IMG/VR virus record: IMGVR_UViG_3300024518_000021
Span: 1-33,529 of that record
Length of the DNA stretch: 33,529 bases
DNA from: a virus
Strand: one strand, 5' to 3'
Positions 9,551-30,644 of this stretch are shown here, piece after piece. A program made the translations under genes and the position numbers. The number at the start of each line of letters is the position of its first letter. Position 1 is the stretch's first letter. The notes beneath the pieces are model-generated. The model was not told where the DNA came from and did no database searches. It saw only the letters and a program-made list of their open reading frames with translations.

Positions 9551-10657
9551 ATGACCATCAATCAGGAGATCGTCGATCGGTACATCGAACACCGGGTTTT
9601 TCTAATCCGGTTCGAGAACCGCGTCGTTCGCGATGTCCTGAAGTCGTTGCGCCGTGGGGAACTGGAGGCACTCGGGGCTATTGCTGATGCTTATCAGCGC
9701 GCGCTGGCTCGTAGCGAGGCAAGCGGTGTGCCTTTGACCGCGTGGGGCGGGGACGGCATCGGCTTTCGACGCAAAGCAGTCAAGCGCATACGGGCCTCGC
9801 TGGGTGACGCCTTCCCTGCGGCGCGCAAGTCTCTGGCGGTGGCCCTCGAGGGCGTCGCTGAGGACGCCACAAGCCTCCTCGTCGCTGAGCTGGAGCAAGG
9901 ACTCCCCGCAGCCGTGATCGACGAGCTGGCCCTCTCCAGGGTGCCCGAGAGGGCGCTGGCCAACATGCTCTCCGACAACTTCGGGGAGCGCCTCGAGGGA
10001 TCGTCCAAGCGACTCGCGGACGCCTTCGGCGACATCGAACTCGCAGCGCAGAGGCGCGTCAACAAGGTGATGCGGGACGGCGTGCGCGATGGGGTGGGGC
10101 TGAACCGGATGGTGAGCCAAGCCCGCGCAGCGATCGGCACCAGCGACACGATGGGCGTGGACGTGGCAAGGGTGGTTCGCACGATGGTGCAGACCACGGC
10201 CAACGACGCGGCCGGGATGCTGCACCGCGAGAACTCGGACATCGTCCGCGCGGAGCAGTACCACGCGACGCTCGACTCGGACACCTGCCCAGTTTGTGGC
10301 CCGCTCGATGGCAAAGTCTTCCCACTGGACAAGAGCGGAGCCTCGACGGTCCCGCGTCCGCCAAGGCACCCGAGCTGCCGGTGCTTTGTGTCTCCCGTCC
10401 TCATGGACTGGAAACAGATGGGCCTTCCGAAGGACAAGATCCCGGCCCGCGTTCGTAAACTCCTCGACGGCAAGCCGGCACAGCGGCAGACGTGGCGCAA
10501 CTGGGTGGACGCGAAGCCCGGACGCCTCGAGAAGATCCTCGGTCCGTCGCGCGCGAGACTCGTCAGAAGTGGCGAAGCGAAACTTTCGGACCTGTCAACG
10601 ACGACAGACGTTCTCAACCTCGACGAGCTACGGCAGAAGATACGGCGGGCAGCATGA
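9551..10657 (+). CDS. MuF-like minor head protein
   Basis: The 368-residue protein ends in the typical Mu gpF/SPP1 gp7 signature: TLDSDTCPVCGPLDGKVF at residues 240-257, then RPPRHPSCRCF at 269-279. C246, C249, H273, C276 and C278 are possible zinc ligands. The first 200 residues are helical. Proteins of this family are minor capsid components attached to the portal that help assembly or DNA release. The family's gene normally follows the portal; here six genes lie between. No toxin or ADP-ribosyltransferase domain is fused to it. It overlaps the next gene as ATGA. Confidence 0.88.
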   Translation: MTINQEIVDRYIEHRVFLIRFENRVVRDVLKSLRRGELEALGAIADAYQRALARSEASGVPLTAWGGDGIGFRRKAVKRIRASLGDAFPAARKSLAVALEGVAEDATSLLVAELEQGLPAAVIDELALSRVPERALANMLSDNFGERLEGSSKRLADAFGDIELAAQRRVNKVMRDGVRDGVGLNRMVSQARAAIGTSDTMGVDVARVVRTMVQTTANDAAGMLHRENSDIVRAEQYHATLDSDTCPVCGPLDGKVFPLDKSGASTVPRPPRHPSCRCFVSPVLMDWKQMGLPKDKIPARVRKLLDGKPAQRQTWRNWVDAKPGRLEKILGPSRARLVRSGEAKLSDLSTTTDVLNLDELRQKIRRAA

Positions 10658-11334
10658 GCGGACGCATCGCACAAGCCCTGCGCATTGGCCAATCGGTCGC
10701 GACGCAATACGCGCCCACCGAGGCGGCCATCCACTTCCTGGACTGGTCTGGCACCGATGACCCCATGAGCCAGTCGAAGCAGTGGACTCTGGGTTCGACC
10801 TGGCGCGGCCGGGTGGTCCTGGCCATGCCCAAGGTGACGCATGGCGTGCCCAGCGACGGCCCGTTTCACCGCCATGTGATAACGGTGGACGTGGACAAGC
10901 TCCCGCGCACGCCTGACGAGGGCGACCGCGTGGAGATCGGCGGGCAGCTGTTCAGCGTCGCAGCCTCGAGGACCATCCTCGGCACGACGGCGGTGCTCGA
11001 GCTGGAAGGCACGGCGGCTGCGGTGCCCACATCTGGCGACCACACCCCGCCATTCATCACAAACGCGGCCATCGTCGGTGCCACCGAGACTTTCACAATG
11101 ACCGCCGACCTCAGCGAATCGGCCTACTACCGATACCGCTACCGCAAGCCGCCCAACGTCGGCTCGTGGGTCACGATCGCATACACGGGCGTGCTTGCCG
11201 CAGACATCTCCGGCGTCAGCGTCTCGCTCGATGCTGGTCTCTACGAGGTCCATCTGCAAGCGAAGGACGCATCGGGCAACGAGAGTTCGTGGGTCGATGC
11301 CGGGAACGTCACGATCACGGGAATCCCCGCATGA
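10654..11334 (+). CDS. Neck / head-closure protein with C-terminal Ig-like domain
   Basis: The 226-residue product has an N-terminal beta domain (about 1-130) with RTPDEGDRVEIGGQLFSVAA, a pattern seen in small head-closure or stopper proteins. A C-terminal Ig/Fn3-like segment (about 135-226) follows, including TPPFITNAAIVGATETFTMT and AGLYEVHLQAKDASGNESSW. That second part resembles add-on domains of virions that bind cell-surface sugars weakly. The start at 10654 overlaps the previous stop as ATGA. Neck assignment comes from order (connector, MuF, this, gp10-like, tail completion). Confidence 0.65.
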   Translation: MSGRIAQALRIGQSVATQYAPTEAAIHFLDWSGTDDPMSQSKQWTLGSTWRGRVVLAMPKVTHGVPSDGPFHRHVITVDVDKLPRTPDEGDRVEIGGQLFSVAASRTILGTTAVLELEGTAAAVPTSGDHTPPFITNAAIVGATETFTMTADLSESAYYRYRYRKPPNVGSWVTIAYTGVLAADISGVSVSLDAGLYEVHLQAKDASGNESSWVDAGNVTITGIPA

Positions 11335-11880: not shown

Positions 11881-12330
11881 GTGGCAAACGTCAGAGTGGA
11901 GGACGTGATCTCGTCCCTCGAGAAGTTCCTCGCAGCCAATTGGCCGACGTCGTCCTGGCGGTTCTACCCGACCGCAGCGGACGCGGCCTCTGCGGACGAT
12001 CGCACAGATGCGGTGGAATGGGTGGGCCTGCAATGGCTCCCAATGTCTCCCGCTCGCCCCATGCGCGCGAGCGAGGACTGGGTCAACGTCGAGTTCCGCC
12101 TGATCTGCTACTCGAGATCGAACGACCGCCTTGCGGCGGCAGAGATGGCCACCCAGTTCAAGGACTTGCTCAGGTCCACGACGTTCGCAGTCTACGACCG
12201 AGCAACTGGCGGCACCACGCAAGTGGGCAGCTGCCGACTTTTGGAGGTGTCGGTCATTCCGCCGGCGCCTGATTCGCGCGGCGTCAACCGTGCGGTGGTG
12301 GAAGTGACCGGCTGGGGCATACCCAGCTAG
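11881..12330 (+). CDS. Tail terminator / tail completion protein candidate
   Basis: The 149-residue product has an N-terminal helix (VEDVISSLEKFLAAN) and then beta strands (DWVNVEFRLICYS, VGSCRLLEVSVIPP, NRAVVEVTGWGI) with a helix between. This matches the alpha/beta layout of lambda gpU-like tail terminators. These proteins cap the tail tube and bind the neck. Location between the gp10-like gene and the tail tube gene agrees. It begins with GTG at 11881 behind GGAGGTGATCGG. Confidence 0.72.
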   Translation: MANVRVEDVISSLEKFLAANWPTSSWRFYPTAADAASADDRTDAVEWVGLQWLPMSPARPMRASEDWVNVEFRLICYSRSNDRLAAAEMATQFKDLLRSTTFAVYDRATGGTTQVGSCRLLEVSVIPPAPDSRGVNRAVVEVTGWGIPS

Positions 12331-12343
12331 AGAAGGGGACGAC

Positions 12344-12859
12344 ATGGCGACGCCAATCTCTCTCAAGGACGGAGCAATCGTCCTGACCGACAACGACGGA
12401 GCGAACACGCTCACCCTCGGACTCGAGGACGGTAACTTGAGCTTCACGCTGCCGCGCCCACACGAGCACTCACCGGATCGCGGGGCTGCCGGCGTCATCA
12501 TCGACGGCGCTTTCGAGCCGATCCCGTTCTCGATGACTCTGGACGTGGTCACCCTGTTGGGGAGCGCGGGAGTCGCTGAGGTGGTTCTGCGAACCGAGTC
12601 AACGTGGGACTTCGGAAAGCTCGACACCGCCGCAGGAAGCTACAGCGGCAAGACGGCCACTCTCCAGGATGTGAGTTCCGATGTGGGCGTCTTTCAGATG
12701 GTCGTCACCTACACCAACCCGACATCGGCCGCAGTAGAGAATCTCTACTTCTTCGACTGCGTGGCGACCTACGACTTCAGCGAAGGTTTGCCGAGCAAGA
12801 CCACGATCAGCGGCGTGAGCTACCAAACGGCGCAGAACTTCCTCGCCAACATCGACTAG
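12344..12859 (+). CDS. Major tail tube protein candidate
   Basis: The 171-residue beta-rich product lies where siphovirus tube genes usually are, between tail completion and tail chaperone genes. The N-terminal part has SLKDGAIVLTDNDGANTLTL and GNLSFTL. The segment DRGAAGVIIDGAFEP (45-59) and the C-terminal NLYFFDCVATYDFSEGL (133-149) recur in the next gene, so the two are paralogues. It would polymerise into hexameric rings around the tape measure. The ATG at 12344 follows GAAGGGGACGAC. Confidence 0.75.
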   Translation: MATPISLKDGAIVLTDNDGANTLTLGLEDGNLSFTLPRPHEHSPDRGAAGVIIDGAFEPIPFSMTLDVVTLLGSAGVAEVVLRTESTWDFGKLDTAAGSYSGKTATLQDVSSDVGVFQMVVTYTNPTSAAVENLYFFDCVATYDFSEGLPSKTTISGVSYQTAQNFLANID

Positions 12860-12868
12860 GGGGATGCA

Positions 12869-14269
12869 ATGGCGGTCAAGACGCTAAAATACGGCGATCT
12901 GTATCTATATAGGGCCGACTCGGATGCGTCTCTGATCGCTGCGAGCGGCTATTCCTACGTGGGCGCGTTCGAGAGCGGTTCGCAGGTGCGGTTGATGGTC
13001 TCGGATGCGAGCGGAATGGATCGCCTGAGCGCGAACCACGCCCTCACGATGAGCCACGCAGCCACGCCGGCGTCCGTTCACGCCCCCGGCAACATGCCCG
13101 CGCATCCCGTATTCTGGGTGAACGACAGCACGGTCCATTGCTGGTACGGTTACGACGTGCTCGCGGGCACTGCGTACACGGTTTTCTATATGCGCAGCAC
13201 CGACGACGGGGCAACCTGGACGACGCCAGTCGAGGTTGTCACTCTGGGCACGGGCGGATCGTGGAACGATGTGGCGATGACTCCGCTCCTGTTCTGGGAG
13301 AACCCCGACGATTCGGCCCTGAATCGGCTTTATGTGGCCGCCAATGACGGCGCGAACTACAAGGTCGGTTACTACGTCGTGGACGCCTCGGCGGGGTCGT
13401 GGAACGTCAACCTCGAAAACCCTGCGAAGTATTCGGAATATGGGAGCAATCCCGTGACCCAGAACCTGGGCGGCGAGTACATCGCGATGATTCACGACGG
13501 CAAGCGGTTTTGCATGTACTACGGCGACGACTCGACGCCGGACCGGGTTTACTTTGATTCAAGCGCCGGGGGCATAGTATGGAACCGGGCAGGGATCGCA
13601 GCCAACCGATTCACCAACCCGATTCTATACAACGGCATCGCGACCACGGCGGACGATGTTTACCTCCGGCCGACTGGCGCCGCCAAAATCGGCGCCTGGT
13701 TCTACCTGTTCTATATGGGCTACGACGGGTCTACCCTGCTGCCGATGTGTGCGGTAGGCGAGCGCCCAGACCACCTCTACAAGATGGGCAGCGTTGCAAA
13801 CTGGAACGGGGGAACGTCGAGCGATGTAGGCCCCAAGGTTTACTACTCGAACGGTGACCTTGCCTACAGCGTGAACCACCAAACCGTCCACGTGGCAGAC
13901 CGCGGCGGCGCCGGTGCGCTTATCGATGCACCGTTCGAGCCTTGGGCCTGGGCTTCGAGTTTTAAGCAGCAGTTCATTGGGCCGAGTGGCGTCGTAGCGC
14001 TCAGCGCCAATAGCGACGAGGTTCTGCTGTGGAACCACGCCATGCTAGCGAACCCGTCGGTAGGCGAGGGCCTGGGCTACGGCTACGACGACCCATCGCG
14101 CATCCATGCCGTCTACCTTGACAAGACCACGGCCGGGGTTGACGAGAGTTTTTACATCTTCCTCGACTGTGTGATTTCCGCCGACGTCGCCGAGTCCGAA
14201 GAGGCAAGCGACGTCACATTCTCGGGCACCGTCAATGGAGCCCGACTCCCCATATTCGGAAGGTTCTAG
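12869..14269 (+). CDS. Tail tube paralogue with inserted beta-propeller domain
   Basis: This 466-residue protein ends (about 327-466) with a copy of the preceding tube protein: GDLAYSV (329-335), DRGGAGALIDAPFEP (344-358) and SFYIFLDCVISADVAES (427-443). A short tube-like N-terminus (1-40, KTLKYGDLYLYRAD) precedes an insert of roughly 280 residues. The insert looks like a five-bladed propeller of the sialidase/GH43 type: an Asp-box STDDGATW at 110-117, TPLLFWENP at 138-146, and NPILYNG with WFYLFYMGYDGS at 250-288. It could be a sugar-binding decorated ring in the tail or a tail-tip ring. Enzymatic activity is not claimed because catalytic acids cannot be assigned. Confidence 0.8.
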   Translation: MAVKTLKYGDLYLYRADSDASLIAASGYSYVGAFESGSQVRLMVSDASGMDRLSANHALTMSHAATPASVHAPGNMPAHPVFWVNDSTVHCWYGYDVLAGTAYTVFYMRSTDDGATWTTPVEVVTLGTGGSWNDVAMTPLLFWENPDDSALNRLYVAANDGANYKVGYYVVDASAGSWNVNLENPAKYSEYGSNPVTQNLGGEYIAMIHDGKRFCMYYGDDSTPDRVYFDSSAGGIVWNRAGIAANRFTNPILYNGIATTADDVYLRPTGAAKIGAWFYLFYMGYDGSTLLPMCAVGERPDHLYKMGSVANWNGGTSSDVGPKVYYSNGDLAYSVNHQTVHVADRGGAGALIDAPFEPWAWASSFKQQFIGPSGVVALSANSDEVLLWNHAMLANPSVGEGLGYGYDDPSRIHAVYLDKTTAGVDESFYIFLDCVISADVAESEEASDVTFSGTVNGARLPIFGRF

Positions 14270-14273
14270 AACC

Positions 14274-14819
14274 GTGCAACTCGATGGCCACCCAGTCAAG
14301 CGCTATACGGGATGTGCTCACATCCTACGGCGTGAGAACGGCGAGCTGGTGGATCTGCAGTTCGCGATCGTCCAACTCGACCCGCAATGGGAAGAGGAAG
14401 CCGAGCGCCAGCTGCCGCCACCTACCGCCCCCATCAACGGGAGAACCAAAGACGCTAGCGGCGCGATGGTTCCCACGTACAACGAGGAAGACCCCGAGTT
14501 CCTGCAGGCGCTCGCCGTCTGGCAACGGCGCCAGAAGGCAAAGAGAATCCACGACGCGAACATTGACGACCGTATCTCCTGGGAGACCGACCCGGAGATT
14601 CTAGAGTCGAACCCCAAGAAGTTCTACGATGGCATCTGGGAGGAGCTTCGCGCCTCATTCGCTCGCGGCGAAATAAACCGATGGGTTTCCGCCATTGTCG
14701 GTATCGATCAAGTGGGCGGCGCGGACATCGCCCTCGCGGAGGAGTCTCTATTTCGAGAACTCCAGCGCCTTGGCGCTCTTTCAGACATGGAAGAGGAACC
14801 AGGCGCGGGCAAAGAGTGA
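14274..14819 (+). CDS. Tail assembly chaperone (gpG-like)
   Basis: The 181-residue, strongly acidic product sits between tail tube and tape measure genes, the standard place for lambda gpG-like chaperones. GTG 14274 is preceded by GGAAGG; an ATG at 14235 would overlap the previous gene by 35 bases. A small beta N-terminus (MQLDGHPVKRYTGCAHIL) is followed by charged helices. The 3' end overlaps, in the +1 frame, an open frame at 14675-15003 that has no good start. This suggests that a fraction of ribosomes shift to make a longer fusion. It would keep the tape measure soluble and recruit tube subunits. Confidence 0.75.
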   Translation: MQLDGHPVKRYTGCAHILRRENGELVDLQFAIVQLDPQWEEEAERQLPPPTAPINGRTKDASGAMVPTYNEEDPEFLQALAVWQRRQKAKRIHDANIDDRISWETDPEILESNPKKFYDGIWEELRASFARGEINRWVSAIVGIDQVGGADIALAEESLFRELQRLGALSDMEEEPGAGKE

Positions 14820-15003
14820 GGTAGAGCTCTCTGGGAAGTTCGGAGAGCTCGCGATTTGCTTCGAGAGGGGATGGACATACGAGGGCGACTGGTTACGGTT
14901 CAGCAAGCAAGACCGCGCCAACATCGTCGCTTTTGTGAATGTTCGGGAGTGGAAGCTAGAGCGTGACAAGGAGCTCAGCGGATTAAGTGACAGCGTGCGG
15001 TAG
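14695..15003 (+). CDS. Frameshift extension of the tail chaperone (gpT-like part)
   Basis: The frame is open from about 14675 and has only a TTG at 14695 as an independent start. From the gpG-like stop onward it reads like real protein (SEVELSGKFGELAICFERGW, then RFSKQDRANIVAFVNVREWK). It is in the +1 (equivalently -2) frame relative to the upstream gene. A plausible slip site is AAA at 14811-14813, where tRNA-Lys could move to AAG just before the TGA at 14817. The fusion would be about 242 residues. Many siphoviruses make the long chaperone form this way. Direct initiation at the TTG is the alternative. Confidence 0.65.
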   Translation: MSVSIKWAARTSPSRRSLYFENSSALALFQTWKRNQARAKSEVELSGKFGELAICFERGWTYEGDWLRFSKQDRANIVAFVNVREWKLERDKELSGLSDSVR

Positions 15004-15026: not shown

Positions 15027-17117
15027 ATGATTATTCAAGAGGGCGCGAAAGTACTCATCGGTGGCGACAACAAGGGACTGTTGCGCACACTGAGCTCCAG
15101 CAAGCTTGCAGTCGCTGGATTCGCCACGGCTGCCGGGGCCGCGCTGTTGAGCGTCGCGGTGCAGTCTGCAAAAATGGCCGCCGCGCTCGACAAGGATCTG
15201 CGCCTCGTAGCTACCCTTGGCGGCGAGGCCGCAGATTCTACCGTCAGGCTTCGCGACGAGGTCAAGGCGCTGGGTCGGGAGTTTGGAAAGGACTTCAACG
15301 AGCTAGCGACGGCAAACTATCAGGCCGTTTCCGGTGGTTTTAAGACTATCGGCGAATCAATGAAAATCGTGCGGGCCGGAACGAAACTGGCAATCGCCAG
15401 CAACACCGGGCTGGTCAAGTCGACCGAGTCGGTGGTTAAGGTTCTAAATGCCTTCGGCAAGGGCGCGAGGCAGGCCAACAAAACAGCGGCCCAGCTCTGG
15501 GCGGTCAGTCGCGACGGTATCGTAACGGTCGACCAGCTCGGGCGCTTCCTCAAGAGCCTGCCGGCTGCTGCCGCGGCCAGCGACATCTCGTTTCTAGAGC
15601 TCGGCGCGGCCCTGTCAACAATGACCAGCATCACGGGATCAGCGTCCGAGGCCGTGGACCAGCTCAGAACCGGCATAATCAAAATGGAGCAGCTCGGTCT
15701 AGAGGGGTCGTTCCTCGATCGGATCGAGACGTTCGTCGGTAAGGATCTCGGCGAGCTGACGACTCTACTCGGTAGCGACGTCGCGGCGCTGGGTATCCTC
15801 ACGCTGGCGGAGAATATCGACATTCTGCGCGTGAACACCGACGCCGCCGGCTCTGTTGTGGGAGACTTCAACCGGGCCGTCGAGGGCATGGCCGGCTCGG
15901 CCACGACGGCCAGCGAGCGCATCCAAGCGAGCTTCGGGTCGCTAATGGAAGATCTGGGCGTCAATATCGGCCAGGCGCTTCCCCTACTCGCGGCAATGGC
16001 GAACGGCATGGACGCGCTTGCGTCCGCGTCGAGCGGCATCAGTAGCATTGCTCTGACCAAGCAAGAGCTTGAGGCCGCCGGCTTTGACGCTGGCGGCGGT
16101 GCCACGGCGGGCGCGTTTGCAGACGGTCGCGGGGCCTCCGGCTTTGCCGCTGGCCAGGCAGCCGCGGCGGCCAGGAGGAACGGCGGTTTCTCGCTCGATA
16201 GGGCGGCGTCGGAGCTGTCGTTACAACGTGCCATCGCGAGCGAGCTCGGCGTCAAGGCGCCAACTGCCGCCGAGTTCGTCAAGGCGATTCAAGAGGGCAC
16301 CACGGTCGCGCTGCGCCAGAGAATGCTGCAGCTCTCCGATAAGACATTCGGCCAGCTATTGTTGGGGTCGCCTATCGCGGGCGGTATTGCCCCGTTCGAC
16401 GGCAAGGACGGCCCGAGCATCGGCGGCACACTCGGGGGGGCGGGACAGTTCAACTCTATTTTCTCCCCGCCAGAGTCCGACATCTCTGGACTGACCCAGG
16501 GCCACCTAGGGCGCCTCGACTTCGACGAGTTCGGCCCGCGCGCGAACCCGGACACGGTTGGCTTTTCGTTCAAGGACTTCAACAAACGCAACGGCATCGG
16601 TGGGGTCGATAAAGAGCTCAAGCGGCTTTCGGCCAGCAGCCTTATCGCGCAGTCGGCCGTTGGCGGCCTAACCTCGATGCTACTCGGCCCGCTCAATAGC
16701 GCGCTGACCTCCAGCAACAGCGCTTTCGGCAACTTCATTTCGGGGATTCTCTCGACCGTGGCGCAGCTCGGGGTCAACAGCTTGCTCTCGTCGTTCATCC
16801 CTGGGTTCGGTGGCGGCTTGCTCCCGACCCTGTTCGGCGGCGGCGGCGGCAGTTCCGAGCTCACCGCAGCCGGCATCCAGTCGAACGATCTAGCGTTCAA
16901 TCCATCGACCCTAGGCGGCGGTGGATCAGGCCCCTCAATGGAGCGCCTGGCTGCCATCGCAGCGTCGGGGGCGCCGATAGAGGTCCACCTCAACCAGAAC
17001 ATCGGCGGAGGCGACCCGGGCGTGATAGGGCGGGTCACAGCGGCAGCAGTTCAAGAGGGCATTCGAGATGCCCGCATCAGCGGCACCGAGCGCCTGTTCA
17101 AGAAACTAGGAAGGTAG
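15027..17117 (+). CDS. Tape measure protein
   Basis: The 696-residue protein follows the chaperone pair and is the second longest tail gene. It is Ala/Gly/Ser/Leu-rich and mainly helical, with a hydrophobic segment near residues 26-50 (SKLAVAGFATAAGAALLSVA). A TP901-type minor tail domain (about 60-320) includes TSTITGSASEA-like turns and QLRTGIIKM. The C-terminal part is Gly-rich (FIPGFGGGLLPTLFGGGG). By the rule of about 0.15 nm per residue the tail would be near 100 nm. It sets tail length and may help DNA cross the envelope. GGGGAGGTGGTGG precedes the ATG. Confidence 0.9.
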   Translation: MIIQEGAKVLIGGDNKGLLRTLSSSKLAVAGFATAAGAALLSVAVQSAKMAAALDKDLRLVATLGGEAADSTVRLRDEVKALGREFGKDFNELATANYQAVSGGFKTIGESMKIVRAGTKLAIASNTGLVKSTESVVKVLNAFGKGARQANKTAAQLWAVSRDGIVTVDQLGRFLKSLPAAAAASDISFLELGAALSTMTSITGSASEAVDQLRTGIIKMEQLGLEGSFLDRIETFVGKDLGELTTLLGSDVAALGILTLAENIDILRVNTDAAGSVVGDFNRAVEGMAGSATTASERIQASFGSLMEDLGVNIGQALPLLAAMANGMDALASASSGISSIALTKQELEAAGFDAGGGATAGAFADGRGASGFAAGQAAAAARRNGGFSLDRAASELSLQRAIASELGVKAPTAAEFVKAIQEGTTVALRQRMLQLSDKTFGQLLLGSPIAGGIAPFDGKDGPSIGGTLGGAGQFNSIFSPPESDISGLTQGHLGRLDFDEFGPRANPDTVGFSFKDFNKRNGIGGVDKELKRLSASSLIAQSAVGGLTSMLLGPLNSALTSSNSAFGNFISGILSTVAQLGVNSLLSSFIPGFGGGLLPTLFGGGGGSSELTAAGIQSNDLAFNPSTLGGGGSGPSMERLAAIAASGAPIEVHLNQNIGGGDPGVIGRVTAAAVQEGIRDARISGTERLFKKLGR

Positions 17118-17121
17118 CGCC

Positions 17122-17574
17122 ATGGCCTGGGGAACGACTGATTATGTGATTCTGACGTTCTCGGCGGTGGACTATATCTTCGCGCCGACTGAGTTGGTCT
17201 ACGCGGGAAACCCGAAGTATGAGCGTAACCAGGTCGTGCAGGAGGCCGAGAGCGGCGAGCGCAAGATTCTGGAGCTAGACGACGTGCTTCGCCAGACGTT
17301 CGAGTTCTCAATCAACAAGATGCCATCAGCAGACCGCACAATCGGCGGCGCGACCATTCGCGGGTTCTCGACGTTGTCCTCGTTGATTCTGGTTTCCTGT
17401 GAGATGCGAACCAACGCCATAACCGTCAAGCCGCCTGGGACCGTATTCGGCGGGGGCACCTCCTGCCGGTTCGACTCCTCGTCGTTCTTTGTGCCGGTCG
17501 TTCGACGCGGCGCCAGTGTGAATACAGACCTATACGGAGGCGGGGCTACGTTGAAGTTCCGCAAGGAGGTCTAG
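17122..17574 (+). CDS. Small distal tail protein candidate
   Basis: This 150-residue beta-rich product lies between the tape measure and the large hub protein. It contains strands such as DYVILTFSAVDYIFAP and LILVSCEMRTNAITV, and a Gly/Ser/Phe-rich C-terminal part (CRFDSSSFFVPVV). Genes in this position in siphoviruses usually encode the distal tail ring or a tip chaperone. No family motif is recognised, so the call is by position. AAACTAGGAAGGTAGCGCC before the ATG gives a reasonable ribosome site. Confidence 0.6.
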   Translation: MAWGTTDYVILTFSAVDYIFAPTELVYAGNPKYERNQVVQEAESGERKILELDDVLRQTFEFSINKMPSADRTIGGATIRGFSTLSSLILVSCEMRTNAITVKPPGTVFGGGTSCRFDSSSFFVPVVRRGASVNTDLYGGGATLKFRKEV

Positions 17575-20237: not shown

Positions 20238-20549
20238 GTGAACCTGCAGCAAATGACCCTAGAGCACGTCGGCCAGATTCTATCGATCGTTACGAGCGGC
20301 TCGCTGCTTGTGTTCGGGATCAAACTCCTAATGAACCTCGGGGCGGCCCGCGAGAAGTTCGACCATATGGGTACAAGCGTTACGCATATTCACAAGCGCG
20401 TGGACGAGATCAACGGCAGCGTGAAGCGGCACGATGGGGAGATCACGGCACTAAACGAGGCACGCAAAACGTGCAATGTTCTTGAGATGGACCACGAGAC
20501 ACGGCTTTCTAGGCTAGAGGGCCAACACAAAGCGGAGGCGAAGATATGA
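20238..20549 (+). CDS. Small membrane protein with coiled coil (lysis candidate)
   Basis: The 103-residue product has an N-terminal hydrophobic helix (VGQILSIVTSGSLLVFGIKL) followed by a charged helical part with heptad-like spacing (HIHKRVDEINGSVKRHDGEI, METRLSRLEGQ-like end). GTG 20238 is 8 bases behind GGAAGG; an in-frame ATG lies at 20253. A membrane helix plus a coiled coil near lysis genes fits an i-spanin-like or holin-accessory protein, but a cytoplasmic tail-tip chaperone is also possible. A frame starting at ATG 20222 is a shadow. It overlaps the next gene as ATGA. Confidence 0.6.
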   Translation: MNLQQMTLEHVGQILSIVTSGSLLVFGIKLLMNLGAAREKFDHMGTSVTHIHKRVDEINGSVKRHDGEITALNEARKTCNVLEMDHETRLSRLEGQHKAEAKI

Positions 20550-22075
20550 AACGGGGACTCTTGATTCTGGCGGTGGCCATAGTAGCAATCACAGGGCCGG
20601 CGGTAGTTGGGGCTGACGAGCATCTTGTCCCAGCCACCTTCGCCACGCTTGAAGCAGCCCTCGTAAATGCTGCCGTTGCTCCAGGCGACACCATCACCGT
20701 CACAAGCGGCAACTACGACCAGATCTATCAGGACTTCGACACGAGGGACGACGGGCTGTTGATACGGTCTGTGCCTGCTTACGCTTGCACATTGTCCAAT
20801 GCAACTTCCAACATTCTCTTGGTCGAGGACGACGGGACGTGGGAGTCCAGCGACTTGGTCTGGGAGGGCATCGTCTTTAGTGGGACCGGCAACGCTGGCG
20901 GTGTGGAATTGGCATCGACCAATTCGTGGACGTTTAATAATTGCATATGGACCGGGGATTGGGACTACCCCATTTCGGTCGGGGCTGGCAGCAACAAAGA
21001 CCAGACAGATTCCCTCACCTTCAACAACTGCCAGTTCAACATCACCAACCAGAATTGGGGTGTCAAGCCGGGAATACTGTTTAACGCGCCAGGAACCAAC
21101 CTGACGTTCAACAACACATCGTTCGACTATTCTGGCGCTGGGACCATCACAAGCGGCAGTCAGCCTATGCTGGACATCATGGGCATGAGTGGGGCCGACT
21201 TCATCAATTGCACATTCACGTCTCCTAACGAGATGGATACCGCCGGTGTTATGTCTTATATCATGGCGCGTGACGCCGGTGCGCCCACCGGCCCAGCTGG
21301 CGACATTGATTTCTTCAATTGCACCTTCACCGGACCAAGCATAATGGATGGGGTGATTAACAGCGCCCTCATCTTGCTTAAGTTTGAGGACGGCGTTGAC
21401 TCCTGCGATGTCATAGGATCTACCTTCACCTCTGCAGCCGGCTCAGCGCAGAACGTCAACGGGGTGAAGTGGGAAAACGGAGACGGTTCGGGGGGCGACC
21501 CTAATGCAACATCAGGATCAGCGATCTCGAACACTTTCAACGGGCTGCGCATCAGTGTCGGCTTTCTGGAGCATTCAGTCGGGCTCGTGGCTAGCGGCAA
21601 CCGCATCAACGGCCAGGGCGGCACAGATAGCGACGGGATCTACTTTCAGGACGCCCAGGATTGTACGGCAACTAACAATTGGGTATCGAATTGCCGCGCC
21701 GGGTTTCGTTCAACCAACGGCGACAGGTCGCCCACATTCGAGAACGCCAGGAACCGCGTAGTCGGAAACTTTATACAGGGCAACACCTACGCCTACTTTG
21801 CGGACACCGGGGACTTCGACGCCTGGTTGGTCGGAGGAAACATTCTCCACGGCAACACTAACGTCGGATCGATTGACTTTGGCGTGACGCCGATCACATC
21901 CCTGGCAACGTGGCAAACGCAGACCGTTCCCGACCTAGCAGCCGAGGCGCCGGGGCACTATATGTCCCTCGGGGATGTGCTGTTCTCAGACTACCCCGGC
22001 GCTCTTCGCGGCGCTGGGTCGGTGCCGCGGGGTTGGGGCAAGCTGTTGGGGTCTCGCAACGGCCTGACTAACTGA
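20546..22075 (+). CDS. Exported right-handed parallel beta-helix protein
   Basis: The 509-residue protein opens with a signal peptide (MKRGLLILAVAIVAITGPAV, cleavage near VVGA-DEH). A ladder of short repeats follows: FNNCIW, FNNCQF, FNNTSF, FINCTF, FFNCTF, each about 30-40 residues apart. Repeats of this kind with stacked Asn/Cys are typical of pectate-lyase-like beta-helices. The C-terminal 70 residues (from about 440) form a separate domain. Phage beta-helices are usually tailspikes without a signal, so the Sec signal is odd. It may act on the envelope or capsule from the periplasm or outside. The base composition looks less GC-rich than its neighbours, a hint of separate origin. Confidence 0.75.
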   Translation: MKRGLLILAVAIVAITGPAVVGADEHLVPATFATLEAALVNAAVAPGDTITVTSGNYDQIYQDFDTRDDGLLIRSVPAYACTLSNATSNILLVEDDGTWESSDLVWEGIVFSGTGNAGGVELASTNSWTFNNCIWTGDWDYPISVGAGSNKDQTDSLTFNNCQFNITNQNWGVKPGILFNAPGTNLTFNNTSFDYSGAGTITSGSQPMLDIMGMSGADFINCTFTSPNEMDTAGVMSYIMARDAGAPTGPAGDIDFFNCTFTGPSIMDGVINSALILLKFEDGVDSCDVIGSTFTSAAGSAQNVNGVKWENGDGSGGDPNATSGSAISNTFNGLRISVGFLEHSVGLVASGNRINGQGGTDSDGIYFQDAQDCTATNNWVSNCRAGFRSTNGDRSPTFENARNRVVGNFIQGNTYAYFADTGDFDAWLVGGNILHGNTNVGSIDFGVTPITSLATWQTQTVPDLAAEAPGHYMSLGDVLFSDYPGALRGAGSVPRGWGKLLGSRNGLTN

Positions 22076-26831: not shown

Positions 26832-27129
26832 ACAGCAATTCCCCCGGCCGGTCGTCTACCGGATCGAAGATCTCAGCGAGCCGCGCGAGCTGGCCCCGGC
26901 CACCACGCTACGGGATCGCGTCTATTCGGCTCTGACCATCATGGCCAGGCCGATTCACACATCAACGGGGCGCATAGGGCGCGTAAGCGTAGGCTACGAG
27001 CGCGTTCGGTTCCTCTCCGGGCAGTTCGGCGTCACGTCCCATCAGATCCGCAAGGCGGTCGAAGGGCTCGCAATGCGGGGCGACATCACCTATCTGGGCG
27101 CAGAGGCCCGAGAGGCGGTGGAGTCGTGA
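26824..27129 (+). CDS. Small winged-helix protein
   Basis: The 101-residue product has a basic start and a winged-helix-like region: LRDRVYSALTIMA (29-41), then VRFLSGQFGVTSHQIRKAVE with GLAMRGDITYLG (61-92), ending in a wing. It overlaps the preceding gene by 8 bases and the SbcDC fusion gene by 4 (GTGA), so these three are co-translated. It could steer the neighbours to DNA ends or regulate the operon. The function is not known. Confidence 0.65.
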   Translation: MRRQQFPRPVVYRIEDLSEPRELAPATTLRDRVYSALTIMARPIHTSTGRIGRVSVGYERVRFLSGQFGVTSHQIRKAVEGLAMRGDITYLGAEAREAVES

Positions 27130-30100
27130 AAATTCTACACATCGCCGATGTTCACTTCGGCAAGAACAGCCTTGACGATCTCCGCGAGCCCTGCGATCGG
27201 ATCTTGGAGCTCGCAGACGGCGTCGACCTGGTCGTGATCGCGGGAGACCTCACCGTCGACCGCGGCGTGATCGACAACGCCAGCGCGCTAGCCTGCCGGA
27301 CGTTTGTGGAGTCGCTCGCGGAGCTCGCCCACGTCCTAATAACTCCAGGAAACCACGACCTGAGCCACCACGCCGACCAGCCGAACAACGTGGCGGCAAT
27401 TCTGAGCGATCGACTCGGGCCTACCAACGAAAACGTGCAGGTCATTGATACGCCGCGCGTGGTCACGCATGGCGAGGCCGCGCTCGCGGTCATTCCCTAT
27501 CCGTCCGCCGCATTGTTCCACGCGAACACGGGCGAGACTTCTCTAGAGTCGCTCAATGAGCGACTCGCACAGCTGAGCATCGGTCTCGCGGCGGAGGCGG
27601 TGGCGACGGGCAGGGTGCCGCTGCTGGTCTACCACGGGACCGTCGAAGGTGGCCGGCATGGCGACGAGCGCTCCCCAGCAATGCTGACGCGCGGCACGGA
27701 CGTCGTGCTTCCAACGGCAGCGCTGGCTGGCTTCCAGGGCGTTCTTGCCGGCCACCTTCATCACCCGCAGACAATCCAGGCGCCCGACGGTCTGGTCGTC
27801 TATCCCGGTTGCGTAGCGCCAAACACTTTCGGCGAGCGCGGGATCGAGCCGACCGCCGTGCTATGGGAGGTCGGGGCCGGGGGCGTCTCGCACGAGAGGC
27901 TTCTCCTCCCCGTCACGCATCAGCGCATCCAGGTGGACGTCGGGGCCGACGACTGGGACGCATCGAAGGATGCAACCCTCAACCTCAATAGCTGGATCGA
28001 GCGGGCGGGCGACGACATCGGGGCGGCCCGGGTCAAGGTTTCGGTGACGGCATCGAAACAGCGCCTGGAGCTCCTGACGAACGACGCGGCCGAGGTGGCG
28101 CGGGCGAAGTACAACCTCAAGGAACTGCGCCTAGAGCGGACGACGATCCCCGAGCACCGCGGCGTGCTCGACGAGAGCGCCGACCGCGCGAACCGCGTCA
28201 ACATCCCCGAGGCCCTGGCGATCTACGCAGAGCAATGCGAAGACCCCGAGTTCTCGCGGCACCTCGATGAGATTCAGGAGGTGGCCCGAGACATCGAGGG
28301 GCTGGTCGAACAGCAAGACAGTGACCCGCGTTACGAGTTCGAGCCGCTGCAGATGCGCCTGGAGAACTACAAGTCGATCGCGTGCGCAAAGGTCGACTTC
28401 GAGAAGCTCCCGGATCGGTTCGGCGTGTTCGGGCCAACCGGGATCGGCAAAAGCAACCTGATGTTGGGGCTATTCTGGCTACTCTATGGGGTCAATCCCA
28501 AGAGTGAGGACGGCAAGGCGAAGACGTCCCTGGGCGAGATGGTCCGGCGGGGAGAAAAAAAGGCCGGCGGATTCCTACGGTTCCGGTGTCGGGCCGGTGT
28601 CTTTGAGATAACGCGCGTGATCACCCGCAGCGCGAAGACGGGGCAGGGCACCGGCAAGCTGTTCCTGACTCGCAAGGTCGCCTGGGTGCCCGTCCCGCTG
28701 AACGAGGGCAACGCCCGGCAGACGCAGCAGGCCATTCTAGGTCTGGTCGGGCCGCCGGAGCTCACCTGGCTGACGCGCCACCTCCGCCAGCATGGCGAGA
28801 GCGCGGTCAAGATGGGGGCGAGCCGCCTGGCTGATTCCATCAATAGCACGTTGCAACTCGACTTCGAGGCCCGTGCGGAGCTCGCCAAGGGGCGCCGAGA
28901 CCGCGCGGCGCACGCATCGGACATCGCAGGGGCGCAGGCCGAGAAGCTCCAGGAGCAGCTGCCATCGGATGCTTCGATCCGCGAGGCCGAGAAACAACAT
29001 GGCTATGACCTGACGCGCGCGAAGGCCGCCTACGAGCACGGGGTCGGTGAGGTCGAGGCGATGGACGCCGAGCACGTGGCCAAGGTCGAGAGGTTGGCCA
29101 GGATTGACGCCAGGGCCGAGCGAGCTGAGCGCCTGGCGCTGCGGCGGCGGGACGTGGCCAAGGAAAAAGCCTCTTGTCAGCACTCTTGGGACCGGGTTCG
29201 GCAGGAGCTGGAACTACTGGGGGACGTGCCAGACCTGACGGAGCTGGTGGCCGCACGGGACGAGTCTTTCGAGAAACTCCAATACTCCAGGGCGCGGCTG
29301 CACGACCTGCGGGAGCAGCACAGCATGCTCCAGCTGGGAGAGTCAGAAGCGCTCGGGGGGCTGCGGCAGTCTGAGACGGCCGCGCTCAGCGCGCGCGACG
29401 CCGCCGCTTCGGCCCTGGTCGTCGCCCGCCGCCGCCTGAGCGATGCCGCTGCATCTGCCGCGTTGCTCGGGGAGGTGCCCTGCGACGGCGCCCGGTGGGC
29501 AAGCATCGAGCCGGGGCTGGGGATCACAGATATGTCCGGTTGCCAGCTCCTCTCCGCTGCCATCGACGCAAGCGAGAAGCTGCCCGAGCTCGATCAGGCC
29601 ATCATTGACGGCGAGGAGCGGCTCGGCAACGCAGATGCGGACTACCTCGTCGCCACCGAGCTGTGTACCAAGTTCCTAGCCTCGGCCATTGAGGCCGAAG
29701 AGGGCAGGAGCGGCGAGCTCGCTACCCTGGACGCTAGTGTGGTTCTGAATATAGCGGCCCACGAAGCCGCCGTTGCCGACCTGGTCGACCTGAGCCACGC
29801 CGCGGACAAGAAGGCGGCCCTTCGGGCCGAACGGCTGGAGTGTGAGCCCAGGTTAGCCCTGGCCCGCCGCCATCTCGACGAGATCGACGGCGAGCTGATG
29901 GGGGCCGAGGGGCTGGTCGAGGAGGCCGCGCAGCTTCGGGACGTCGTCGCTCGGAGCAACGCTCAGCGAGTCGAGAGCCAATTGGTGCTTAGGGGGTTCG
30001 CGGCGCAGATCGCCACCGCCGAGGCCGGCCTAGAGCACGTCGCTGGAGCTCGGAAGTCCCGCGCGCAGATGCTCCTGCAGATAGAGGTTCTACTCAACAC

Positions 30101-30644
30101 GCAGACGGCCGAGGACCGCCAGCGCATGGCGGCGTCGTACTACCTGCAATCGGTCCAGCGTAACGGGATCCCGTCGCTACTCCTGGAGCGGCTCGCGCCG
30201 ATCCTAGAGCTGCGAGTCAACGAGATTCTGATTCCCTGCGAGCGGCAGATTCGGATCGAGACCCTACGCACGACCACCACGGGCGTGACACGGGCCGAGG
30301 TCAACCTGCTGTTTCAGTCTCCAACCTCCCAAGGCGAGTGGATTCCCATCGCCGAGCTGAGTGGGGGAGAGGAGGACATCGCGAACGCTGCCTGGGCTGT
30401 TGGCCTGGCGCAGACCGCGGCGGAGATGAGCGGGACCGGCCTGGAGCTGATAGTGCTCGATGAGCCGTTCACTGGGGTCAGCGCGGAGTACGCCGAGGCC
30501 GTCCGGGACGTGCTCGGCAACATCCAGCGCCACGTCCCCCGCCTCTGTATCATTACACACAAAGAGGACCTGAAGCCGATGGCCGGGGCTGTTCTCCAGC
30601 TCTCGCAGAACGGTGACGGCGTTCATATGGAAGTAGAGAGATAA
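27126..30644 (+). CDS. Single-chain SbcD-SbcC (Mre11-Rad50) nuclease-ATPase fusion
   Basis: One uninterrupted 1172-residue protein carries both halves of the SbcCD complex. Residues 1-260 are SbcD/Mre11: IADVHFG (D8, H10), IAGDLTVD (D41), PGNHDLSH (N76, H77), YHGTVEG (H170) and GHLHHP (H210, H212). About 270-400 is a capping/linker region. Residues 405-1172 are SbcC/Rad50: RLENYKSI, Walker A GPTGIGKS (436-443), two long coiled coils (about 585-780 and 810-990), a hook with C786 and C806, signature LSGGEE (1078-1083), Walker B LIVLDEPF (D1112, E1113) and H-loop ITHKED (H1145). Such complexes open and trim DNA ends and hairpins. Phages normally encode the two halves separately. GTG 27126 overlaps the prior stop as GTGA. 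Confidence 0.93.
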   Translation: MKILHIADVHFGKNSLDDLREPCDRILELADGVDLVVIAGDLTVDRGVIDNASALACRTFVESLAELAHVLITPGNHDLSHHADQPNNVAAILSDRLGPTNENVQVIDTPRVVTHGEAALAVIPYPSAALFHANTGETSLESLNERLAQLSIGLAAEAVATGRVPLLVYHGTVEGGRHGDERSPAMLTRGTDVVLPTAALAGFQGVLAGHLHHPQTIQAPDGLVVYPGCVAPNTFGERGIEPTAVLWEVGAGGVSHERLLLPVTHQRIQVDVGADDWDASKDATLNLNSWIERAGDDIGAARVKVSVTASKQRLELLTNDAAEVARAKYNLKELRLERTTIPEHRGVLDESADRANRVNIPEALAIYAEQCEDPEFSRHLDEIQEVARDIEGLVEQQDSDPRYEFEPLQMRLENYKSIACAKVDFEKLPDRFGVFGPTGIGKSNLMLGLFWLLYGVNPKSEDGKAKTSLGEMVRRGEKKAGGFLRFRCRAGVFEITRVITRSAKTGQGTGKLFLTRKVAWVPVPLNEGNARQTQQAILGLVGPPELTWLTRHLRQHGESAVKMGASRLADSINSTLQLDFEARAELAKGRRDRAAHASDIAGAQAEKLQEQLPSDASIREAEKQHGYDLTRAKAAYEHGVGEVEAMDAEHVAKVERLARIDARAERAERLALRRRDVAKEKASCQHSWDRVRQELELLGDVPDLTELVAARDESFEKLQYSRARLHDLREQHSMLQLGESEALGGLRQSETAALSARDAAASALVVARRRLSDAAASAALLGEVPCDGARWASIEPGLGITDMSGCQLLSAAIDASEKLPELDQAIIDGEERLGNADADYLVATELCTKFLASAIEAEEGRSGELATLDASVVLNIAAHEAAVADLVDLSHAADKKAALRAERLECEPRLALARRHLDEIDGELMGAEGLVEEAAQLRDVVARSNAQRVESQLVLRGFAAQIATAEAGLEHVAGARKSRAQMLLQIEVLLNTQTAEDRQRMAASYYLQSVQRNGIPSLLLERLAPILELRVNEILIPCERQIRIETLRTTTTGVTRAEVNLLFQSPTSQGEWIPIAELSGGEEDIANAAWAVGLAQTAAEMSGTGLELIVLDEPFTGVSAEYAEAVRDVLGNIQRHVPRLCIITHKEDLKPMAGAVLQLSQNGDGVHMEVER

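Follow-up and report, generated by a model that had tools for sequence, protein, structure and literature searches.

The IMG/VR record IMGVR_UViG_3300024518_000021 comes from an uncultured siphophage, and all of its 33,529 bases (the window) were analysed. Two adjacent genes in the tail region encode proteins of 171 and 466 amino acids, of which the larger contains the putative tube domain of the smaller, split by a long insert. The features of the locus are as follows.

12333-12338, + strand: AAGGGG, Shine-Dalgarno-like sequence ahead of the small paralogue
12344-12859, + strand: small paralogue, 171 aa, probable major tail tube protein (gene slot, Foldseek, 45% identical orthologue)
12858-12863, + strand: AGGGGG, Shine-Dalgarno-like sequence ahead of the large paralogue
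12869-14269, + strand: large paralogue, 466 aa, putative tube domain split by a probable propeller insert (paralogy; orthologue P0004)
12869-12922, + strand: large paralogue residues 1-18, N-terminal arm and first tube strand
13823-14266, + strand: large paralogue residues 319-466, the other part of the tube domain, a homologue of the small paralogue from residue ~22 on

An earlier note on this DNA had described the second protein as a copy of the first with about 280 residues inserted after its first strands. Both motifs behind this view occur in both proteins, with DRGxAGxxIDxxFEP at residues 45-59 (12476-12520) of the small paralogue and 344-358 (13898-13942) of the large one, and FxDCVxxxD at residues 136-144 (12749-12775) and 431-439 (14159-14185), respectively. 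BLASTP aligned residues 29-147 of the small protein with residues 328-442 of the large protein at E=4e-8, and hhalign of the two-sequence profiles gave E=6.6e-8, as compared with 0.27-0.46 when four other tail genes were aligned to that profile as controls. The Smith-Waterman local score was 95, and none of 1000 shuffles reached this value (mean 36, maximum 63). Judged by these comparisons, the paralogy of the two proteins is beyond chance. The first strand can also be aligned (SLKDGAIVL in the small and TLKYGDLYL in the large paralogue), and therefore the extra residues, about 19-318, are an internal insertion, as the earlier note had it, of a slightly greater length of ~300. The insertion point is the beta1-beta2 turn, which is DNDGAN in the small paralogue. 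The large paralogue has its own open reading frame, its own Shine-Dalgarno sequence and its own ATG; an origin by frameshift, as in SPP1 and the 936 phages, was ruled out by this separate frame with its own start. Because the Shine-Dalgarno sequences are good for both genes, the DNA gives no support for rarity of the large protein.

Relatives were searched for in IMG/VR by protein, by alignment and with degenerate DNA patterns of the hinge loop described below, and in 84,980 genomes and INPHARED by protein or alignment. A second contig of the same phage, IMGVR_UViG_3300024520_000601, was obtained with one mismatch over 17,839 bases (99.994% identical). A divergent relative, IMGVR_UViG_3300040801_001486, has 36,643 bases and is probably complete or circular, because it carries a 117-base direct terminal repeat. 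Its small paralogue (179 aa, in L003) is 45% identical to the 171-aa protein, and its large paralogue (444 aa, P0004 in L003) is 29% identical to the 466-aa protein. The two genes lie at the same location in the same order. Thus, duplication and insertion took place before these phages diverged, and the arrangement is an old one that has been maintained, since the divergent relative has both genes at the same place. No relatives beyond these two contigs were found in the three collections, where the IMG/VR and genome scans depend on short exact patterns and so have limited coverage, and none of the other hinge-loop pattern matches in IMG/VR had a related protein inside. A weak match to Pseudanabaena phage Pan3 was discarded, as the matching gene is a capsid gene and the genome is of the podophage type. 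The phage group carrying the pair is rare, uncultured and long-tailed.

The following features bound the slot in which the pair is located.

11881-12330, + strand: 149 aa, probable tail terminator (assigned from its position only; without family match; 33% identical neighbour in L003)
14235-14819, + strand: probable tail assembly chaperone (by position; 39% identical to the relative's L027:92-631)
15027-17117, + strand: tail tape measure protein (TMP), 696 aa (phrog_991 E=3.5e-21, PF10145 E=9.3e-16)

Upstream of the pair are Ad1 (phrog_477, 2e-19), a Mu F-like gene (51% identical to that of the relative), an Hc1-like gene (weak PF05354 match, 4e-4; 29% identical) and Neck1 (phrog_169, 3e-15; 50% identical). 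Downstream, past the contig join in the relative and beyond its chaperone gene, the TMP is 43% identical overall and 57% identical across its first 318 residues, and it is followed by a post-TMP gene and a hub gene with 44% and 32% identity. Over these tail genes, identity between the two phages is about 30-50%. The Mu F-like gene, for head morphogenesis (9551-10657), follows the capsid gene and lies between Ad1 and Hc1, unlike in the compared phages, where it comes directly after the portal gene. The Hc1-like head closure protein (10690-11334) is extended at its C-terminus by an Ig/PKD-like part (about residues 131-205); its homologue in the relative (L003:6257-6922) is of equal length and aligns across this extension. 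With the Hc1-like protein, the same virion has a second connector protein that carries a decoration. A second frame (14695-15003) overlaps the 3' end of the probable chaperone gene and stops just before the TMP. It resembles the G/GT frameshift pairs, and a similar frame is present in the relative; an X-XXY-YYZ heptamer was absent from the stretch scanned.

The pair thus occupies the major-tail-protein slot, between the probable terminator and the chaperones and TMP, although terminator and chaperone are assigned mainly by position. MED16, a Stenotrophomonas phage, a Vibrio phage and lambda share this gene order, and their annotations show one major tail protein there. The AlphaFold model of the small paralogue, made from the two-sequence alignment, has a mean pLDDT of 34. 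In a Foldseek search with this model, nearly all of the top 19 among 350,542 chains were tail-tube-fold proteins of phages and contractile systems, including those of the phiCD508 tail, diffocin, YDC107, HFTV1, monocin, RcGTA, T4, pyocin R2 and lambda. No match was significant alone (best E 0.048), and because the matches are individually non-significant and mutually related, the list is concordance and not proof. No Pfam, PHROG or PDB sequence match above cut-off was obtained for either paralogue, the PDB search with the two-sequence profiles gave chance matches only, and the profile of the tube domain did not resemble those of five annotated tube proteins. This lack of a sequence match to any tube family would suit a different assignment, in which the small protein is a terminator-, collar- or initiator-like tail or neck protein and the large one a collar adhesin. 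In RcGTA the stopper, terminator, tube and distal proteins share one fold (PMC7296036), and therefore the fold alone cannot separate a tube protein from other tail proteins. On the other hand, apart from the pair no gene separates the probable terminator from the chaperones, so that no other tube candidate is seen in the slot, and the small protein, at 171 aa, is as long as a tube domain alone (~168 aa for JBD30 gp44 less its decoration domain). We consider the non-tube assignment quite unlikely. From gene order and the low-confidence model, the tube fold of the pair is supported rather than proven, in line with the tube identity that the earlier note had assumed; neither a non-tube fold of the C-terminal part nor a non-tube nature of the 12344 product emerged on this basis.

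The insert of the large paralogue carries the following features.

12923-13822, + strand: large paralogue residues 19-318, inserted probable five-bladed beta-propeller (strands, Foldseek, BNR_2, hand assignment)
13196-13219, + strand: Asp box, sequence motif STDDGATW, residues 110-117 of the large paralogue

The structure predictions that the earlier note had proposed gave a poor model for this protein too (mean pLDDT 33, two-sequence alignment), in which the strand pattern splits into blades. The top Foldseek neighbours of this model were five- and six-bladed propellers of the GH32, GH43, GH62 and sialidase types, seven of them at E<=0.001. The blades were assigned by hand to about residues 19-65, 66-127, 128-188, 189-256 and 257-311, and five were likewise assigned by hand in the insert of the relative; no blade repeats were detected by self-alignment of the insert. 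BNR_2 matched the insert at E=0.025 (14.4 bits, below the 31.4 cut-off), and GH117 matched the insert of the other phage weakly (E=0.35). These two matches weakly point to one common fold. The Asp box, which fits the pattern S/T-x-D-x-G-x-T/S-W that lies between the strands of a blade in BNR proteins, has a counterpart at the aligned position of P0004, and FYLFYMG, read as a blade motif in the earlier note, corresponds to FHLMYAG. The NPxxYNG block of the same note was dropped as a diagnostic, as NPILYNG falls in an alignment gap in the relative. Taken together, the Foldseek neighbours, the Asp box and the weak family matches support the propeller character that had been proposed, with a fold that is likely but not proven, as it was modelled at low confidence.

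Since the closest folds are the enzymes of GH32, GH43, GH62 and GH33, the propeller could be active as a glycosidase or depolymerase and degrade capsule or exopolysaccharide during the approach of the tail. In favour of this reading, Asp134 and Asp262/263 are conserved in the two-sequence alignment at the inner-strand starts of blades 3 and 5. However, no conserved glutamate was seen at an equivalent inner-strand start, no recognisable three-acid catalytic set is present between the two insert sequences, and no catalytic family matched above cut-off. Catalysis is therefore unlikely in our judgement, and because no conserved three-acid set was seen, a lectin role is preferred over an enzymatic one. 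In lambda gpV, the beta1-beta2 loop touches a neighbour's external Ig domain (PMC8718954). This contact fits an outward display of the insert, which, by analogy, would probably be placed on the outer surface of the tube.

The best conserved segments of the large paralogue are its N-terminus and a long loop, which is located as follows in the two proteins.

12452-12526, + strand: small paralogue residues 37-61, HEHxxDRGxAGxxIDGxFEP loop at the ring-to-ring beta2-beta3 hinge place
13874-13948, + strand: large paralogue residues 336-360, retained hinge loop HxxDRGxAGxxIDxxFEP

In the pLDDT 34 model of the small paralogue, predicted strands at residues 31-36 and 62-67 flank this 25-residue loop; the hinge loop of JBD30 gp44 spans residues 42-62 (PMC11445458). 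The loop is conserved in all four proteins, i.e., both paralogues of both phages. Between the large and the small paralogue the identity is 44% at the hinge loop and 13-22% in the remaining core. Between the large paralogues of the two phages, 62% of the N-terminal aligned columns are identical, and the N-terminus and hinge loop together have 21/41 identical positions (51%) against 20/110 (18%) elsewhere in the tube domain (Fisher p=1.4e-4). Such a contrast was not found between the small paralogues (p=0.36). Known tubes use the long loop and the N-terminus for contacts from ring to ring (PMC8718954, PMC10276861, PMC7296036). The conservation of these segments modestly favours one or more dedicated rings of the large paralogue, which would have to stack on ordinary rings and would thus need these segments while the remainder could drift; the argument is modest because it relies on two sequences whose diverged part is aligned with uncertainty.

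The large paralogue might instead mix randomly with the small one along the whole tube, as a minor subunit like gp17.1* of SPP1. The same gene slot, the similar Shine-Dalgarno sequences and the retention of the entire tube domain would agree with this, as would the extended tube subunits of SPP1 and the 936 phages. However, in mixed rings the lateral faces would be expected to be constrained as well as the axial ones, whereas outside the axial contact segments, which are kept, the tube domain of the large paralogue has an identity of only 13-22% with the small protein and of only ~17-20% between the phages. Mixing along the tube is thus a possibility that we regard as distinctly weaker than that of dedicated rings. 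A tube of two products in which many or all rings bear active propellers, so that the shaft would be an array cutting or gripping polysaccharide, seems very improbable.

Tube decorations are usually small Ig-like domains, the use of which is unclear. The statement in the earlier note that they are mostly added at the C-terminus was too strong, as the internal domains of JBD30 and YSD1 and the large modules of 936 TpeX indicate. JBD30 gp44 has an internal decoration domain at residues 88-175 of about 256 (PMC11445458), and shares with the present pair the tube sandwich and long hinge loop, as predicted here, the internal and probably outward decoration, and the slot before chaperone and TMP. 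However, its domain is Ig-like, of ~90 aa, follows an alpha-helix and belongs to the sole tube protein, whereas here it is a second copy that has a putative propeller of ~300 aa in its beta1-beta2 turn. YSD1_22 likewise has an extra domain (domain2) within the tube fold, but this domain braces adjacent subunits, and neither a propeller nor a second gene copy was reported (PMC8718954). Two forms of the tube subunit per virion, one with a host-binding or adhesin domain, are found with SPP1 gp17.1/gp17.1* and 936 TpeX (PMC6669499). The TpeX extensions are large carbohydrate-binding modules, and lactococcal phages attach to host cells with large decorated domains of tube and neck (PMC6669499); the SPP1 and TpeX extensions are C-terminal and made by programmed frameshift, whereas here a separate gene has an internal insertion. 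RcGTA g12 (PMC7296036) and the evolved Dit of 936 phages (PMC6669499) combine a tube-like fold with an inserted sugar-binding-type domain in one ring, but Dit is encoded after the TMP and bears OB-fold or BppA-like modules, and the present gene precedes the TMP beside the tube gene. Assignment of the large paralogue as Dit was rejected on this order, and in both phages another gene (17122-17574) follows the TMP. With the five-bladed GH43, GH32, GH62 and GH117 propellers and the Asp-box BNR propellers, the insert shares the predicted strand order, the Asp box and the Foldseek matches, but not a significant sequence match or a recognisable catalytic triad. Internal decorations, sugar-binding extensions, two tube forms per virion and tube-fold rings with sugar-binding-type domains are thus already known. 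A separate tube paralogue with a propeller in the tube fold, or any tube-borne propeller, was not found in the open-licence papers searched.

From these observations, we propose that a tube gene was duplicated and that a five-bladed propeller was then inserted into the beta1-beta2 turn of the beta-sandwich of one copy. As the large paralogue keeps its N-terminal arm and hinge loop, it should be able to stack on the ordinary rings of the 171-aa protein. Its most likely arrangement would be one dedicated hexameric ring, or a few, each with six propellers directed outward. The propellers would act as a non-catalytic lectin for glycans of the host surface and would give a reversible adsorption before the tail tip meets its receptor, so that the ring or rings carrying them would themselves grip the host surface. 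This explanation as a whole, with dedicated rings of a second tube subunit and non-catalytic glycan-binding propellers, has in our estimation about an even chance of being right. The presence of a duplicated tube gene with an inserted propeller in two phages indicates that the tail shaft, or one ring of it, can serve as a dedicated adhesion device, and suggests that a domain of 300 residues can be accommodated in the beta1-beta2 turn of a tube protein.

Two further genes of the window were noted. An open reading frame of 509 aa at 20546-22075 begins like a signal peptide, and its repetitive body, rich in N/S/T, looks like a right-handed beta-helix; neither Pfam nor PHROG gave a match. In the relative, this region instead contains a lysozyme-like gene. 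At 27126-30644, one open reading frame of 1172 aa combines two parts, a phosphoesterase like SbcD/Mre11 (residues 1-240) and an ATPase like SbcC/Rad50 (residues 410-506; Walker B at 1075-1130), and its product is a single-chain Mre11-Rad50.
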